From a candidate division KSB1 bacterium (lineage in GTDB: Bacteria > Zhuqueibacterota > JdFR-76 > DREG01): a DNA stretch of 9,076 bases. The notes under the pieces were generated by a model. It made no database searches, had not been told where the DNA came from, and was given only the letters and a program-made list of their open reading frames with translations. Shown piece by piece: positions 347-8,890 of this stretch. Each line of letters starts with the position of its first letter. Within the stretch, counting starts at the first letter, position 1. Position numbers and translations under genes: made by a program. The stretch covers positions 1 through 9,076 of the forward strand of contig JADFJB010000155.1 in assembly GCA_022566355.1 (NCBI GenBank), written 5' to 3'.

Positions 347-1402
347 ATGAACTCCGTATCCATAAATCTTAACCAAATCAAAAACTGGCATCCCCCCGAT
401 CATTGGATTAAAATTACGACAATCGATGCTCATACAGGGGGAGAACCGCTTCGCATCATCACAGGCGGATTTCCGGAATTAGCCGGTAAGACTATCTTGG
501 AACGCAGGCAATTCGCCAAAGAAAATTTTGACACCTTAAGAACAGCACTCATGTGGGAACCGCGCGGTCATGCGGATATGTATGGCTGTGTACTTACACC
601 ACCCACTAGTCAGGATGCGGATTTTGGCATATTATTTCTACACAACGAAGGCTATAGTACCATGTGTGGTCATGCGATTATTGCAATCACAAAAGTGGCG
701 CTGGAAACCGGGTTAGTACCCATGCAGGAACCTGAAACAAAAATCAAAATTGATACGCCCGCCGGACTTGTAAAAGCATTTGCTAAAATAGAAAATAAGC
801 GGGTACAGAGTGTCTCTTTCCATAACGTGCCTTCATTTGTTGTCGAACTAGACGCAAAAATTGATGTTCCCGGCCTGGGTAACATACCCTATGATCTCGC
901 TTTTGGTGGCGCATTCTATGCCTTTGTTCAGGCCGAAGATGTCGGTGTTCAATGCACTCCCGAATTTTTTCAACAGCTCATCAAAAAGGGTATGGCTATT
1001 AAACGAGCCATCATGAAAGATCGACAGATAGAACATCCCTATGAAAAGGATTTGAATTTCTTGTATGGCACTATTTTTATCGATGCATCACCGAATAAGC
1101 AGGTTGATAGCCGCAATGTTTGTATTTTTGCAGAAGGTGAAGTCGACCGCTCGCCAACCGGAACAGGGGTCAGCGCCCGGATGGCGATTCATTATGAACG
1201 GAGGGATATCGGCATAAATCAACCGATGACCATCGAAAGTATCATCGGTAGCCGTTTTACCGGCAGGGTGGTAAACACCACGACGTTCGGACCTTATTCA
1301 GCAGTGATTCCGGAAGTGGAAGGAACAGCTTTTATCACCGGTAAAAATGAATTTTATCTCGACCCGGATGATCCCTATAAACATGGATTTATATTGCGCT
1401 AA
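347..1402 (+). CDS. Trans-3-hydroxy-L-proline dehydratase (proline racemase superfamily)
   Basis: Predicted cytosolic enzyme that removes water from trans-3-hydroxy-L-proline to give delta-1-pyrroline-2-carboxylate. The 351-residue length suits the proline racemase superfamily. The N-terminal family signature is DAHTGGEP (27-34), the first catalytic motif is MCGHA (106-110, Cys107), and the second is DRSPTGTG (267-274). In racemases and 4-hydroxyproline epimerases the second motif carries Cys. Here it is Thr271, the Cys/Thr pair known from human L3HYPDH and bacterial trans-3-hydroxyproline dehydratases. That substitution is the basis for choosing dehydratase over racemase. ATG 347 is the first possible start because an in-frame TGA lies at 332-334. 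There is no clear Shine-Dalgarno sequence. The gene ends in a double stop (TAATAA) and converges on the proline dehydrogenase gene with a 28-bp gap. Family assignment is very secure; substrate specificity is strong inference. Confidence 0.9.
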   Translation: MNSVSINLNQIKNWHPPDHWIKITTIDAHTGGEPLRIITGGFPELAGKTILERRQFAKENFDTLRTALMWEPRGHADMYGCVLTPPTSQDADFGILFLHNEGYSTMCGHAIIAITKVALETGLVPMQEPETKIKIDTPAGLVKAFAKIENKRVQSVSFHNVPSFVVELDAKIDVPGLGNIPYDLAFGGAFYAFVQAEDVGVQCTPEFFQQLIKKGMAIKRAIMKDRQIEHPYEKDLNFLYGTIFIDASPNKQVDSRNVCIFAEGEVDRSPTGTGVSARMAIHYERRDIGINQPMTIESIIGSRFTGRVVNTTTFGPYSAVIPEVEGTAFITGKNEFYLDPDDPYKHGFILR

Positions 1403-1430
1403 TAAAGAGGTTTATGGAGCGTAAAAAGGA

Positions 1431-2360
1431 TTACCTGGTAAACATATTCTTCATGACGAACAACACATTTGCGGGTCGTTCTGCTAATCGACGCATGTAC
1501 CAGGGATACCAGAATTCCCCATAACTAATCAATGATCTAACATGATAACCAGCATTGGCCAACCGAATTTGCTCCTTCGTAACGATGCCATAAAGCATTT
1601 GAATTTCCAGATTTTCCTGGGGAATTTCATATTTCTCTGCAGCCTTCTGGATTCTTGCGAGCAAATCCAAATCATGCGTTGCAAATGCCGCCCGGGTTCC
1701 ATTTTCTTTGGACGATTCAAGCAGCATTTCCGATAATTTATAAAAATTCTCATCGACATCTTTTTTATCTGGATAAGCCTTTTCTTTCGGTTCGTTATAC
1801 GCCCCTTTCACCAAACGAATAGCCGGCGTCAATTTCAACAATTCGACCAGATCATCTTCAGTACGATACAAATAGGATTGAATGCACAATCCAACATTTT
1901 CAAATTCTTTACGTGCGCGATGATAGAACTTCAACGTAACATCCGTATAAGCGCTGCTTTCCATATCAATCCAAACAAAATTCTTACGTGCTAAAGCTTC
2001 TTCTGTAATTGCTTTAAAATATCCATAAGTTTTTTCAACTGATAAATCCAAACCTATTTGAGTCAATTTAAGAGAAATCTCGGCTTGCAGGTTTGTCTTT
2101 TCAATTTTTTTGAGCACTTCTATGTAATGTTTGGCGACTACTTCAGCCTCTGATAATCCCTGAAGATTCTCCCCTAAATGAGTAAATATAATTTTAAGTC
2201 CATTTGCTTGAATGGATTGCGCTGCAAGAATTGCATCCTCGATTTGCTCTCCTGGCATGAAGCGTTTTACTGCTTTTCGAACAAAAAAGAAATTGGCGCC
2301 ATGTTTCCGCAGCCACTGGTTATCTGCGCCCCACAAAATCATATTTCTGAATATAGACAC
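1431..2360 (-). CDS. Proline dehydrogenase (stand-alone, FAD-dependent)
   Basis: Oxidises L-proline to delta-1-pyrroline-5-carboxylate and passes electrons through FAD to the quinone pool, normally at the membrane surface. At 309 residues it is a single-domain PRODH barrel, without the P5C dehydrogenase domain of PutA. Visible motifs in order are SLKLTQIGL (96-104), WIDMESS (130-136), RLVKGAY (182-188), ATHD (227-230), EIQMLYGI (252-259), and YGEFWYPW followed by YMRRLAERP (280-296). Arg290, Arg291 and Glu294 correspond to the RRxxE substrate-binding set of the family. Translation most likely starts at GTG 2358-2360, which keeps the family-type N-terminus (SIFRNMIL...NQWLR). An ATG six codons later is the alternative, and an upstream in-frame stop at 2406-2408 limits extension. 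It lies 143 bp downstream of the aconitase X small subunit on the same strand, so it may be co-transcribed or have its own promoter. P5C dehydrogenase is not in the window. Confidence 0.93.
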   Translation of the reverse strand: MSIFRNMILWGADNQWLRKHGANFFFVRKAVKRFMPGEQIEDAILAAQSIQANGLKIIFTHLGENLQGLSEAEVVAKHYIEVLKKIEKTNLQAEISLKLTQIGLDLSVEKTYGYFKAITEEALARKNFVWIDMESSAYTDVTLKFYHRARKEFENVGLCIQSYLYRTEDDLVELLKLTPAIRLVKGAYNEPKEKAYPDKKDVDENFYKLSEMLLESSKENGTRAAFATHDLDLLARIQKAAEKYEIPQENLEIQMLYGIVTKEQIRLANAGYHVRSLISYGEFWYPWYMRRLAERPANVLFVMKNMFTR

Positions 2361-2503
2361 TTCCCAACCTATTCTTATTAATTGGAAGACTTTTAAAGAA
2401 TTTTTTTAAGGTAACGAAAAACAGTTTAACTGCAAACAGTCTTTTCAAAATATCATAATCAATAAATATTTTCTAAGGACGTCATCGATATTGCAGCACA
2501 TTT

Positions 2504-2923
2504 TTAATCAAAAATTTCCACTGTACCATCTTGCTTAACATGCATCATTTTTCCATTTTCCAACGCATCAAAATCTTCATCATCTAAAGCGATAATGGGA
2601 ATTGGTTTCGAATACATGACTTCCGCAACAACGGAGGCTAAGGCCAGAAATTGATCCACACCGCGCGTAATAATAGCTCCGGGAGCAGTGCCAGCCCGAA
2701 TCGCTTCTAACAAAACGGCAGTAGTTGTACTGGAGCCGCGTGTGGTTGGGATCGCAAGGATACACCCAGCCGCAATTCTGCCGCAAAGAGGATGGCGCCG
2801 GTCGATAATTTCACCGGTTTGGGAATCATAACCGCCCCAGAAACTCAGAGATTCGCTGCTAAACAGAATTTCGCCTTTCGATTCCCCTGGCACAACCGGA
2901 TGACCCTGAATTATTTTTCCCAT
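2504..2923 (-). CDS. Aconitase X small (swivel) subunit, probable cis-3-hydroxy-L-proline dehydratase
   Basis: 139-residue swivelling-domain subunit (DUF126 type) of a two-subunit aconitase X. It pairs with the large subunit to close the active site. Family features are GHPVVPGES (7-15), the FWGGYD...GEIIDRRHPLCG stretch (29-48), TTRGSSTTTAVLLEAI (60-75), whose Ser/Thr-rich loop is the expected substrate-contacting segment, and the AGTAPGAI segment (77-84). The ATG lies inside the end of the large-subunit gene, giving a 13-bp overlap in another frame, which implies translational coupling. AAGGGA about nine bases before the ATG is a plausible ribosome-binding site. In many bacteria this domain is fused to the large one; here it is separate. 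The alternative role for the family is the archaeal mevalonate-5-phosphate dehydratase, disfavoured by the proline-related neighbours. Confidence 0.88.
   Translation of the reverse strand: MGKIIQGHPVVPGESKGEILFSSESLSFWGGYDSQTGEIIDRRHPLCGRIAAGCILAIPTTRGSSTTTAVLLEAIRAGTAPGAIITRGVDQFLALASVVAEVMYSKPIPIIALDDEDFDALENGKMMHVKQDGTVEIFD
2911..2923 (-). other. 13-bp start/stop overlap coupling the aconitase X subunits
   Basis: On the minus strand ATGGGAAAAATAA contains both the small-subunit start ATG and, in another frame, the large-subunit TAA stop. Such an overlap normally keeps two subunits of one enzyme in fixed ratio by translational coupling. Confidence 0.8.
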
Positions 2924-4176
2924 AAAGAATCATCCCTTATAATGAAGCCGGAAATTGCCGAATGGACACAATCTTCCGTGCTGCCAAAAGCAATTTGTTT
3001 ATTCAACAGGCTCGGTGTATAAAAAGCGTATTTGGCCGAATTTGTCATGAGTGTTTTGATTGCCGGGGGTAGCATGGGAGTTGTTATAATGCACGTATCC
3101 ACGGTAATTTTACCGCCGAATTCTTGCAGGGGTGTTAAGAAATTTGCCCGATCTGCCAGTTCTTTCATGGTTCGGCTCGTTGTAACTAAAAACTGCACCT
3201 TACTATGGCATCTCTTGTTTGTAATTAATGGAACCAATTTTTTAAATTCTGCAAAAGAAAAATGTGGACTGCCAAGAACGACCATATCGAGTTGATCTGT
3301 TTTTGTGGTGGTCAATTCATCTCGTGCTTCGCGCAATTGGCTCATATCCAATTCGACACTCCTTTGGAGAAATTTTCCCTGGCAGGCTTCTTTTAAAGTT
3401 GCCGCTTCCGGAGTCACACCGACAATATGGCAGAGACCTAATGCACTCGAAGAGGCCATTGCAGCGCAAAAAGATTTGAGTTGATCTTCAGTAGGGTTGA
3501 TTTTAATGCCCTCGACAATCGGAATTTGGTCACCCGAAATTTTACCAATCCAATGACCGAGAACTGGATAAAAGCTGTCATCTTCCTGTAACTTTAGTGG
3601 GATTTTATCAATTCTGATCACAAACTGTCCGGCGCGATTTTCTTCTAAATGTAATCCGGCAGCCGGAACGCGACCGGTAATTGCGGCGCAAATATCGAGC
3701 AAATCCGGGTAGCGCTCGGTTCGAGCACCAATGACTGTATTCGCAAACGCAATGGCATTGGATTCACCCCAGGCAATCTGTTGTCCAAACCTGGGTCTGT
3801 GCTCGGTTTGATAGGGCGCGCAGGTCCATGTCGGGATGCAACCCATGTTCTGGTAAGCCACCATCTGGCGATGGGCTTTACGGGCATGATCGGGTGGAGT
3901 AGACCATTCCTGCCAATGATGCTCGTCAACTCCGGATACATTTAATGTAGAGGGAACTTTAACTTTTGCTCCTGAATTCGCCAGGCGCTCGGCAAATTCA
4001 AGAGTGGCATCTCCCATGTATAAGCTGCTATCGATGTGAGCAGCGGTTATATCCAGCAAAGAGTTCGCTCCATAAATCCCGACCATTCTTGTCATGATCG
4101 ACATGGCGAGTTGAGCGGCGGGTCCATGCTCTCCGTGCAACAAAGCCTGATCGTAAGAGGTTAGATTTAGATTCAT
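2911..4176 (-). CDS. Aconitase X large (catalytic) subunit, probable cis-3-hydroxy-L-proline dehydratase
   Basis: 421-residue catalytic subunit (DUF521 / AcnX type). Bacterial AcnX enzymes are characterised iron-dependent dehydratases turning cis-3-hydroxy-L-proline into delta-1-pyrroline-2-carboxylate. Family landmarks are LLHGEHGPA (12-20), NMGCIPTWTCAPY (110-122), the WGESNAIAFANTVIGARTER stretch (136-155), GSPHFSF (302-308), DTCIITTP (360-367), NSAKYAFYTP (379-388) and FGSTEDCVHSAISG (397-410). Cys113, Cys362 and Cys403 sit where I would expect the iron or iron-sulfur ligands; this mapping is from memory of the family and unaligned. ATG at 4174-4176 begins the usual family N-terminus, but no good Shine-Dalgarno sequence precedes it. 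A palindromic repeat begins 18 bp upstream. The gene is followed directly by its small subunit and then proline dehydrogenase, which fits a 3-hydroxyproline pathway. Archaeal relatives act on mevalonate 5-phosphate, so substrate remains inference. Confidence 0.9.
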   Translation of the reverse strand: MNLNLTSYDQALLHGEHGPAAQLAMSIMTRMVGIYGANSLLDITAAHIDSSLYMGDATLEFAERLANSGAKVKVPSTLNVSGVDEHHWQEWSTPPDHARKAHRQMVAYQNMGCIPTWTCAPYQTEHRPRFGQQIAWGESNAIAFANTVIGARTERYPDLLDICAAITGRVPAAGLHLEENRAGQFVIRIDKIPLKLQEDDSFYPVLGHWIGKISGDQIPIVEGIKINPTEDQLKSFCAAMASSSALGLCHIVGVTPEAATLKEACQGKFLQRSVELDMSQLREARDELTTTKTDQLDMVVLGSPHFSFAEFKKLVPLITNKRCHSKVQFLVTTSRTMKELADRANFLTPLQEFGGKITVDTCIITTPMLPPAIKTLMTNSAKYAFYTPSLLNKQIAFGSTEDCVHSAISGFIIRDDSLWEK

Positions 4177-4474: not shown

Positions 4475-7400
4475 TCAGTGGTCCTGTTCTTTAAATTCTT
4501 CCTCAGATAAAATTTTGATCGTTCCCATTTCCTTTTTTTTAAGCTTTTCATTCAAAGAATTCAAATCTTTACCAATTATTGATTGGAATGATGCATCTGC
4601 ATTTTCAAGTTCTTTTTCTAGTTTCCTGGCCCGATCGAGTTGTGTTTGTGTGGGTCTGCCGCCATAGCTGTTCACGGCGCCAAATAGTGAAACAACTCTT
4701 TCACGAATTCTCTCATCATTTGAAATGCCTCGAGTTCTAACAGTAACGACTAGTGTTTTATAAAGAACATCCAAAGCATCTGCGAATTTTGTTAAATCCT
4801 TCGCCAGACGATCATTCTTCTTTAGGCTATTCGATCGTTCCCTTGCATCATCACGTACGTCTGTTGCTGCTTTGGCAATGTAGGCAAGCCGTTCCTGCAT
4901 GCCGTATAATTTCCACATGGTTTTTTGCTGGAGATCACGATCTTCTGTAGAATGGCTATACTTGGGGTCGTGAAAAACTTCAATCTTGGTTTCAAGTGTG
5001 TCGGATGATTTGATTAATCGAGCCGTATAAACTCCCGGATTCACCGCCGGTCCAAAAACAAAACCGCCTCTTAGTGAACGCGATGGCGGCGTCCTGGGCG
5101 CTTTTAATCGCATGGGCCATTCTACGCGATTAATTCCTCTGCGCTTACCGCCGGATAAAGATTTTATCATTTCACCACCTTCATTAAAAATATCGATCTT
5201 GAGATCTCCAAAAAGATGCCTTTTTTTCAGATAGTAAGTAATCGTCGCCACCTCAGTTGGATTTTCTCCCACAAATTGATCGCTACCGTTAAATCGTTGT
5301 CTGCCCGATCGTGTTGTGATTGTGGTTGGTCGCGATTTAAATAATGAAACATTAGCAGTGAGAACTTCCTGGCTAACCTGGCGCAGGGGAGTAATATCAT
5401 CCAGGATGTAAATTCCGCGACCATGTGTTGCTAAAATAAGATCAGCTTCTCGGGGATGAATTTTAATTTCCCGAATGCCAACTTTGGGTAAATTGCCTTT
5501 AAATCGTACCCATTGCTCACCGCCATCTACAGACACAAACAAACCAAACTCCGTGCCTAAGAATAAAAGTTTCGGATTGACATTATCTTCACAAAAATCC
5601 AGCACATAGCCTTCCACCGCTTCCGTAGCAATAGATTGCCATGTTTTGCCTAAATCTGTGGTTTTAAAAACATACACATTTTTATCGCCATTGCGATGGC
5701 CATCGAACACTGCATAAGCAGTATTGCGATCGTGATAACTTGCCTGGACATCTGAACACCAGGTGTTTTTGGGTAAATTGTCAATATTACCTACAACATT
5801 CGACCAGCTTTTGCCATTGTTCGAAGTGACTTGAAGATTACCATCATCGGTGCCTGCCCAAATGACAGTTGGATCTTTTGGTGATTCGCTTATCGTGTAA
5901 ATGGTACAATGATTCTCCGCCATGCTGTTGTCAATCGTCAATCCACCAGATTTATTTTGTTTTTGCTTTTCAGGATCGTTTGTGGTCAAATCCCCGGAAA
6001 TCGTCTGCCAGGATTCACCACGATCGTTTGACCTGGAAAGATATTGCGATCCGAAATACATCACACCCGGTTTTGTGGGACTAAAAGCAATGGGAGTATT
6101 CCAGTTAAAGCGATATTTTTTCTCGCCGTCTTTTGGAAAGGGCTTGATTTGTTTCGTTTCGTTGGTTGAACGATGCCTTCTAACAATATTACCGCCCTGT
6201 GATTCATAATAAATAATATCGTTATCAGAAGGATCCGGAAAAACATAAAAGCCATCGCCACCACCGATATTTTTCCAATCGCTATTTGAAATACCACCCA
6301 ACCCCTTTGAGGGTGCCATCCACGAGCCATTATCTTGCAATCCACCATATACATTGTAGGGGCGATCCATATCATAACTAACCCGATAAAATTGTGATAC
6401 CGGTAAATTTTTATAAAAGAGCCAGGTACCGCCCCTGTCACGGGATTCATAAATTCCGCCATCGGTTCCCAGTAAGATATGACGTGTCTCATCAGGATTA
6501 ACCCAAATGGCATGGTGATCCGGATGAACACCGCCTCCTAGTCTGGAGAATGTTCGTCCACCATTTTCACTGATCGAAAGCGATTGGCCCGGTTTATAAA
6601 CTCTATCATGATTTTTAGGATCTACGTATAGATGACCAAAATAGAATGGACGACCGGCAACCGATTGAGAGGAATTCATTTCTTCCCAATTATGTCCCAA
6701 ATCATCCGTGCGATACAAAGCGGTTTTTTCTGCCTCGACAATCGCATAAACAACGTTTGGACGAGATGGTGCCACTGTAACAGTTATCCGACCCAAATTC
6801 CCTTCAGGTAAACCGTTCCGCAATATCTCCCAGGTTTCGCCGCCGTCAATGGATCGATAGAGGTTGCTGCCTGGTCCACCGGAATTAAATGTATGGGGCT
6901 GACGCCTGAATTCCCACATTCCGGCATACAGTATTTTAGGATTAAGGGGATCCATCGATAAGGAAGAGCACCCGGTATTTTCATTGACTTTAAGGATATG
7001 CTTCCAGGTTTTACCGCCATCTGTTGTCCTGTAAACGCCACGCTCTTCATTCGCATTCCACAAATGTCCCAATACACCCACATATACCGTATTCGAATGA
7101 TGTGGATCGATTTGTATTGAACTGATTCTCTCGGAATTCCCTAATCCCATAAATTTCCAGGTTTTACCACCATCCATTGTTTTATAAATGCCTGTCCCAA
7201 TTGAAACGCTATTTCGGACATTGTGCTCACCTGTGCCGACCCAAACTGTTTTGGGATTTGATTGATCGATTTTGAGATCGCCTATGGATTGAGAGTGTTC
7301 GTCAAAGATTGGGGAAAAGGTTATCCCGCCACTTTCTGATTTCCAAACACCGCCGCCTGCTGTACCGACATAAATGATATTTTTATCATTATTAACAACA

Positions 7401-7570
7401 TCGATGCTGGTTATACGGCCGCTCATGACAGCAGGTCCAATGGCCCGGGCTTTCATCCCGCCAAATATGTTTGAATCTATTTTGATGCCATTATCCTGTT
7501 CGTTAGAACCAAGTGAAAATGAAGAGGATAAGAAAATACATAAAGATAGGAAGGCTATACGTTTCAGCAT
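4475..7570 (-). CDS. Secreted sortilin/Vps10-like Asp-box (BNR) beta-propeller protein
   Basis: 1031-residue exported protein of unknown function. Residues 1-22 form a signal peptide (MLKR, then a hydrophobic core). Cys11 is not in a proper lipobox, so a lipoprotein is unlikely. At least eleven Asp-box-like motifs (D-x-G-x-[ST]-W type) occur near residues 78, 132, 183, 241, 289, 335, 377, 515, 583, 639 and 681, each in a blade with an I/V-Y-V/A-G-T type strand. This fits a large or double propeller spanning about 40-725. Residues about 740-870 look like a beta-sandwich ending in GVYTARL. Residues 870-1018 are charged and probably helical. Such proteins are often labelled glycosyl hydrolase, but I see no sialidase catalytic set, and binding or a structural role is as likely. 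The start is supported by AGAAGGAG eight bases upstream. No functional link to the proline genes is evident. Confidence 0.85.
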   Translation of the reverse strand: MLKRIAFLSLCIFLSSSFSLGSNEQDNGIKIDSNIFGGMKARAIGPAVMSGRITSIDVVNNDKNIIYVGTAGGGVWKSESGGITFSPIFDEHSQSIGDLKIDQSNPKTVWVGTGEHNVRNSVSIGTGIYKTMDGGKTWKFMGLGNSERISSIQIDPHHSNTVYVGVLGHLWNANEERGVYRTTDGGKTWKHILKVNENTGCSSLSMDPLNPKILYAGMWEFRRQPHTFNSGGPGSNLYRSIDGGETWEILRNGLPEGNLGRITVTVAPSRPNVVYAIVEAEKTALYRTDDLGHNWEEMNSSQSVAGRPFYFGHLYVDPKNHDRVYKPGQSLSISENGGRTFSRLGGGVHPDHHAIWVNPDETRHILLGTDGGIYESRDRGGTWLFYKNLPVSQFYRVSYDMDRPYNVYGGLQDNGSWMAPSKGLGGISNSDWKNIGGGDGFYVFPDPSDNDIIYYESQGGNIVRRHRSTNETKQIKPFPKDGEKKYRFNWNTPIAFSPTKPGVMYFGSQYLSRSNDRGESWQTISGDLTTNDPEKQKQNKSGGLTIDNSMAENHCTIYTISESPKDPTVIWAGTDDGNLQVTSNNGKSWSNVVGNIDNLPKNTWCSDVQASYHDRNTAYAVFDGHRNGDKNVYVFKTTDLGKTWQSIATEAVEGYVLDFCEDNVNPKLLFLGTEFGLFVSVDGGEQWVRFKGNLPKVGIREIKIHPREADLILATHGRGIYILDDITPLRQVSQEVLTANVSLFKSRPTTITTRSGRQRFNGSDQFVGENPTEVATITYYLKKRHLFGDLKIDIFNEGGEMIKSLSGGKRRGINRVEWPMRLKAPRTPPSRSLRGGFVFGPAVNPGVYTARLIKSSDTLETKIEVFHDPKYSHSTEDRDLQQKTMWKLYGMQERLAYIAKAATDVRDDARERSNSLKKNDRLAKDLTKFADALDVLYKTLVVTVRTRGISNDERIRERVVSLFGAVNSYGGRPTQTQLDRARKLEKELENADASFQSIIGKDLNSLNEKLKKKEMGTIKILSEEEFKEQDH

Positions 7571-8077: not shown

Positions 8078-8890
8078 CTACTTTCCAGGCATTTTGAAAA
8101 TCTTATCATCCAACTCTACATTGACTTCGTATTTTTTGATTGTAATTTCAGAACTTCCACCGCCACGACCTCCGCGGCCACCACGACCACCTCTACCGCC
8201 TCTGCCTCCTCTACCACCACCTCGGCCGCCAAAACCACCGCCACCTTTTGTGGTAATCGAATGCGGCATCATTACTCCATCTACAGGTTTGAAATCGCTG
8301 AATAAAGATTCTATTTCAACAGTATTTCCTTCTCTTCCCACTCTTTGAGCCACGCGTTTTATTTCCACATAATACTCTGAATCTAAATAGGATATAAACG
8401 TTTCACCGTCTTTGCCGGTAACTTTTAGTTTATACACTTCAGTGCCTTCAAACTCTTCTTTTCCCTGGAGCTCCACTTTGAATCCTTTATCTTTATAATT
8501 AACTAACGGACTTCCAATTTCAGCCTGGCCAATGATTGATTGGGCTTGCGGTCCTGTCATTTCTTCAGGGTCTTCGCTCCGAAATGGAATAATAGCCCAA
8601 GCTGTTTTACCATCATAAGCTTGCACGATTAAATTACCGCGCATTTCAGTCTCGTTGCGCACCATATTCGGCTGTTTAATGTAACGGGTAAAATCTGATT
8701 CAAAACTAAAATTGCCACCACCTCTGGTTGTGGTACCTGTGATCTTTAGAGTTTTGATGGCTTCAATTTTTTTCAGGCCGCCTAAAGCTTCAATATGCTT
8801 TTTGATAATATCATCAACACTTTGGCTCCAAGCTGAAACGGCATAAAAACTAAAGATAATCAGTAAGGTAAATATTTTTCGAATTATCAT
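8078..8890 (-). CDS. Exported LolA-like protein with an RGG-repeat insertion
   Basis: 270-residue protein with a clear Sec signal peptide (MIIRKIFTLLIIFSFYAVSA, cleavage probably near residue 20-22). The mature N-terminus SVDDIIKKHIEALGG and the following alternating strand pattern resemble the periplasmic proteins annotated as outer membrane lipoprotein-sorting (LolA/LolB-fold). The fold would be a half-barrel that holds lipid or peptide, acting in the periplasm or at the outer membrane. I infer this from style; it is not a canonical LolA, and its function is unknown. Late strands DGVMMPHSITTK (204-215) and ITIKKYEVNVELDD (249-262) are separated by a Gly/Arg tract at 216-245 with seven arginines in an RGG register. 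The start is secured by GGAGGA seven bases upstream. The next gene in the same direction is about 500 bp away, and no intrinsic terminator is visible after the stop. Confidence 0.7.
   Translation of the reverse strand: MIIRKIFTLLIIFSFYAVSAWSQSVDDIIKKHIEALGGLKKIEAIKTLKITGTTTRGGGNFSFESDFTRYIKQPNMVRNETEMRGNLIVQAYDGKTAWAIIPFRSEDPEEMTGPQAQSIIGQAEIGSPLVNYKDKGFKVELQGKEEFEGTEVYKLKVTGKDGETFISYLDSEYYVEIKRVAQRVGREGNTVEIESLFSDFKPVDGVMMPHSITTKGGGGFGGRGGGRGGRGGRGGRGGRGGRGGGSSEITIKKYEVNVELDDKIFKMPGK
8156..8245 (-). repeat. In-frame Arg-Gly-Gly tract (about 9-bp unit)
   Basis: Codes residues 216-245 of the LolA-like protein: a GGGGFGG lead-in, then seven arginines each followed by two or three glycines. Arg codons are mixed (CGA, AGA three times, CGT twice, CGC) and Gly codons alternate among GGT, GGC and GGA. 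The tract is therefore not a fresh DNA slippage product, and the peptide pattern has been kept while codons drifted. Confidence 0.85.

Follow-up and report, generated by a model that had tools for sequence, protein, structure and literature searches.

Catabolism of 3-hydroxy-L-proline has been described for clusters that hold AcnX (LhpI) and trans-3-hydroxy-L-proline dehydratase (T3LHypD, LhpG) genes, whose enzymes share the product delta-1-pyrroline-2-carboxylate (Pyr2C) (PMC5144071). The Cys/Thr class of the proline racemase superfamily has been assigned to T3LHypD (PMC4364671), and the T. litoralis trans-3-hydroxyproline dehydratase has been solved (6r76; PMC9309405). AcnX proteins of type IIa have two cluster cysteines and the residues that bind cis-3-hydroxy-L-proline (C3LHyp), and several of them are C3LHyp dehydratases. 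Most bacterial AcnX copies do not have this C3LHyp signature and their substrates are not established, and C3LHyp itself is, as far as known, rare in nature (PMC8184944). Pyr2C reductases may be of the OCD or the MLD2 type (PMC4113996).

Here we analyzed a window of 9,076 nucleotides, which is the entire contig C155 of a MAG of 4.62 Mb in 213 contigs. The dehydratase pair that it encodes is already a published cluster type (PMC5144071), and the divergent proline dehydrogenase (ProDH) is the least expected part. Compared with the published clusters, the window has no transporter, regulator or reductase, its AcnX is split, T3LHypD is on the other strand and a ProDH-family gene adjoins; the lineage also differs from the proteobacterial and fungal examples.

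Gene content of the locus

Both dehydratase types and the ProDH family named in the original prediction were confirmed, as the open reading frames are present, pass the Pfam cut-offs and match the corresponding structures (Table 1).

Table 1. Features of the 9,076-nucleotide window.
Feature	Position	Strand	Length (aa)	Remarks
T3LHypD	347-1402	+	351	Pfam PF05544 Pro_racemase, 393 bits, over curated cut-off
ProDH-family flavoenzyme, divergent branch	1431-2360	-	309	Pfam PF01619 Pro_dh, 103.6 bits versus cut-off 27
AcnX small subunit (AcnXS, swivel domain)	2504-2923	-	139	Pfam PF01989 AcnX_swivel_put, 85 bits, over curated cut-off
AcnX large subunit (AcnXL)	2911-4176	-	421	Pfam PF04412 AcnX, 477.4 bits, over curated cut-off
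Sortilin-Vps10/BNR-repeat beta-propeller protein	4475-7570	-	1031	Upstream of AcnX
LolA-like outer-membrane lipoprotein-sorting protein	8078-8890	-		Weak Pfam match; Gly/Arg-rich low-complexity stretch near C-terminus

The minus strand carries, in order, the VPS10/BNR protein, AcnXL, AcnXS (with a 13-bp overlap) and, after a 143-bp gap, ProDH. T3LHypD converges on ProDH from the opposite strand, with 28 bp separating both genes, so AcnX and T3LHypD do not share a transcription unit. Only AcnXL-AcnXS, possibly together with ProDH, could form a single operon. Promoter and terminator scans of the window were near shuffled expectation.

For T3LHypD, the best solved relative was 6r76 (E 2.3e-151), well ahead of proline racemases, and the catalytic pair is Cys107 (in MCGH) and Thr271 (in SPTGTG). 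The top NCBIfam model was NF045511, with 403 bits and thus under its equivalog cut-off of 540; judged from its sequence, we assign the protein at the level of the class and not of the equivalog.

AtAcnX numbering was transferred to the AcnX pair via alignments and verified with the S70A mutant and every named residue. The closest structures are those of the A. tumefaciens cis-3-hydroxyproline dehydratase, namely 7cnq for AcnXL (E 2.3e-93, 316 bits, versus 216 bits for 7cnr) and 7cnp for AcnXS (91 bits versus 52.6 for 7cnr). Membership of AcnX type IIb (mevalonate-5-phosphate dehydratase) was not supported, as both subunits score TkAcnX (7cnr) below AtAcnX. The NF051439 cut-off was made for fused AcnX of 555 aa and is uninformative for split subunits. 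The C3LHyp-binding residues Trp35, Ser70, Thr72, Asp203, Asn233, Glu292, Ser293, Asn294, Lys530 and Tyr534 are all identical to AtAcnX, the equivalents of the first three being carried by the small subunit, and the cluster cysteines are two, Cys273 and the one Cys left of Cys-X-Cys. At sequence level, the pair is thus like type IIa AcnX (PMC8184944) in its binding residues, its two subunits and its two cluster cysteines. It is unlike the described members in having Leu for Ile206, a conservative change, and Ser for Cys71, and its identity to the nearest proteobacterial AcnX, which is plasmid-borne, is about 43%.

The ProDH-family gene is the only Pro_dh match in the genome. Its product resembles the monofunctional ProDHs of Thermus (2ekg/2g37) and Deinococcus (4h6q), which are the closest solved structures, in fold family, length and the carboxylate-side RR motif, but differs from them at the equivalent of PutA Tyr540, which is Leu. 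The window motif is L-I-S-Y-G, where ordinary ProDHs have Y-(V/L)-P-Y-G. Tyr was found at this position in all 24 ordinary ProDHs compared from the phylum, as well as in the Thermus and Deinococcus structures, versus Leu in the window branch. No NCBIfam equivalog cut-off was reached by the window protein. Matches to it were present in 51 of 59 genomes, mostly as ordinary ProDH with 31-38% identity. Besides an ordinary ProDH, a complete one about 50% identical to that of the window is present in five genomes belonging to one family of the phylum, and a fragment with 80% identity occurs in a same-order genome. Loci noted for the Leu branch, with L-I-S-Y-G in place of Y-V-P-Y-G, are the window gene, L112-L116 and L141-L146.

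Reductase candidates and a P5C dehydrogenase gene outside the window

The original prediction had described the Pyr2C reductase as missing from the window, which is correct for the whole contig; at its left edge (positions 1-346), there is no partial reductase ORF either. A search of the genome, as had been proposed, returned three OCD-family genes (contigs C114, C175 and C123) and no MLD2-type reductase, so that at family level the genome does have reductase candidates. In a small maximum-likelihood tree with long branches, the C114 gene (8453-9385) groups, with support 96/92, with OCDs that five relatives have beside or near T3LHypD; this group also includes an OCD near AcnX in a Pyrinomonadaceae contig. 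In the same tree, mu-crystallin/ketimine reductase is the partner of the C175 protein, and alanine dehydrogenase that of the C123 protein. The Pyr2C reductase 6t3e is the best solved relative of two of the OCD proteins of the genome (38-40% identity), that of C175 included; none of the three reaches an equivalog cut-off. On these grounds, we consider C114 the first reductase candidate and C175 the second. The solved T3LHypD and Pyr2C reductase are thus the best solved relatives of the respective proteins, but the reductase genes are here unlinked to the dehydratase.

Two observations were made in passing on the contigs with OCD genes. On C114, the OCD gene is adjoined by a distant relative (27% identity) of the window VPS10/BNR protein. 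On C123 (L099), a short remnant of an M24 peptidase (1737-2030, covering HMM positions 150-208 only) stands before the OCD gene (2285-3268), and the two are perhaps a decayed peptidase-OCD pair.

An aldehyde dehydrogenase on contig C9 was identified as P5C dehydrogenase by TIGR01236 (816.9 bits versus a cut-off of 613.6). TIGR01237 was the wrong model for this genome.

Neighbourhoods and co-occurrence in other genomes

In the set of 59 genomes (own included), AcnX was found above cut-off in 3 and Pro_racemase in 19, and both in the window genome only; two sampled members of the same family had neither. In the two other phylum members with AcnX (G044 and G046), Trp35 is replaced by Phe, Thr72 by Val and Asp203 by Ala. 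Shared ancestry of their AcnX with that of the window was rejected, as they represent a different, signature-less class.

T3LHypD genes of the relatives have peptidases of the M24 aminopeptidase P/prolidase type close by at seven loci, OCD reductases at five and a sodium:solute symporter at two, which suggests that the hydroxyproline is derived from peptides. In the own genome, nine matches to M24 were found, some of them partial and none linked to the window. Among the sources named in the original prediction, nothing ties the locus to peptide antibiotics, and peptide-bound 3-hydroxyproline derived from protein is the better guess, on indirect evidence.

ProDH adjoins AcnX at 0 of about 120 other AcnX loci and was rejected as a conserved AcnX partner. 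In the other family with Leu-branch ProDHs, no hydroxyproline genes were found among the neighbours. The adjacency of ProDH and AcnX in the window is therefore weak evidence for a pathway. Neighbours of AcnX in Chloroflexi and others were also considered as pathway genes and rejected, being of mixed and mostly unrelated families.

AcnXL-AcnXS-T3LHypD tandems are present in three Anaerolineales contigs. Their T3LHypDs fall within a supported clade that excludes the window T3LHypD, and the AcnX-T3LHypD association may therefore have arisen at least twice. Overall, a member of the Pro_racemase superfamily adjoins AcnX at 5/36 signature loci, versus 0 of about 84 other AcnX loci.

Co-occurrence was analyzed in 199 Anaerolineae genomes, with AcnX copies typed by the C3LHyp signature residues. 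AcnX was present in 88 genomes, in 15 with and in 73 without the signature. Genes of the Pro_racemase superfamily were found in 13/15 genomes with signature AcnX, in 7/73 with other AcnX and in 18/111 without AcnX. With shared ancestry ignored throughout, the Fisher test for signature genomes versus the rest gave p = 5e-9 for the superfamily (13/15 vs 25/184), p = 0.02 for the Cys/Thr dyad (4/15 vs 12/184), p = 2e-5 for Ser/Cys or Ser/Thr (5/15 vs 2/184) and p = 0.04 for Cys/Cys (4/15 vs 15/184). These data speak for a general function of signature AcnX in (hydroxy)proline metabolism; for a specific pairing with T3LHypD, the support is weak. The wording "T3LHypD with AcnX" was dropped for this co-occurrence, because Ser/Cys and Cys/Cys members make up much of the signal. 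Ser/Cys homologues that co-occur with signature AcnX were seen, for example, at L220, L222, L226, L227 and L228; this class, the function of which is listed as unknown (PMC4364671), may work together with AcnX. The signature-less copies (L243-L340), without Trp35, Thr72 and Asp203, belong to other classes, among them a group of about 600 aa with an open frame.

Proposed route and alternative explanations

We consider it probable that the locus serves the catabolism of both 3-hydroxy-L-proline isomers, with reductase and P5C dehydrogenase encoded elsewhere. With its Cys/Thr pair as acid and base, T3LHypD would dehydrate trans-3-hydroxy-L-proline. The cis isomer would be dehydrated by AcnX of type IIa, an iron-sulphur enzyme of two subunits, and the products of both dehydratases would tautomerise to Pyr2C. 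An OCD-family enzyme, most likely that of C114 and as second choice that of C175, would reduce Pyr2C to L-proline. The co-directional ProDH-family enzyme would then probably convert proline to P5C, from which the C9 dehydrogenase would form glutamate. The imino acids would most likely be released by M24 Xaa-Pro peptidases from peptides of hydroxylated protein, collagen-like or other. Of all this, gene identities, active-site residues, the genome inventory and the co-occurrence were observed, whereas the substrates (that of ProDH included), the choice of reductase and the origin of 3-hydroxyproline are inferred. From the original prediction, a route for both isomers thus stands on the class-defining residues of both dehydratases, the OCD candidates and the P5C dehydrogenase, and is weakened by the separate transcription of T3LHypD and AcnX, the missed equivalog cut-offs of T3LHypD, ProDH and the OCDs, the weak co-occurrence for the Cys/Thr dyad and the apparent rarity of C3LHyp in nature.

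Proline as substrate of the third enzyme, which had been taken for granted, fared worse. According to the part of PMC3718742 that cites Ostrander 2009, PutA Tyr540 enforces proline over hydroxyproline; with Leu at the equivalent position, proline as substrate is therefore an assumption. Instead, the ProDH-family enzyme might oxidise a substituted proline such as a hydroxyproline, or a different cyclic imino acid, and so form a branch alongside the dehydratases, not a step after them; the five genomes that keep an ordinary ProDH besides the Leu-branch one hint at such another job. We regard this as rather unlikely, because the window gene is the sole one of its family in a genome that has a P5C dehydrogenase elsewhere, and because the branch does not neighbour hydroxyproline genes in other genomes. 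Moreover, the published mimic of hydroxyproline activity is reportedly a Tyr-to-Ser change, and the window residue is Leu, not Ser.

It is less likely still that AcnX acts on another 3-hydroxy imino acid or a hydroxy acid, with an incidental place beside T3LHypD. The signature is missing from most bacterial copies (PMC8184944), the window pair has substitutions at Cys71 and Ile206, and at most signature AcnX loci T3LHypD is not close by; on the other hand, all other C3LHyp contacts are retained, and only signature AcnX goes together with proline racemase superfamily genes, both across genomes and in adjacency. Finally, the neighbourhood could be an artefact of a misassembled or misbinned contig, given that C155 is short (9 kb), that the MAG is fragmented and that the two sampled family members have neither AcnX nor Pro_racemase. 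This explanation appears very improbable for a MAG with 98.5% completeness and 0.21% contamination. In particular, contamination is unlikely in view of the tetranucleotide correlation of 0.90 with the other contigs of the genome, exceeding that of all foreign loci compared, and of the ProDH fragment with 80% identity that another genome from this order carries.

Together, the catabolism of both isomers remains our preferred reading, and the locus would put 3-hydroxyproline catabolism outside the described proteobacterial and fungal examples. That signature AcnX and the proline racemase superfamily are coupled at genome level is independent comparative support for its function in (hydroxy)proline metabolism, and the small share of Anaerolineae AcnX genomes with the signature (15/88) means that AcnX annotation needs a residue test. 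Work on substrate specificity has a concrete target in the divergent ProDH branch: if it oxidises a hydroxyproline or another proline analogue, which we regard as rather unlikely, it would represent a third, oxidative entry to substituted prolines beside the two dehydratases.
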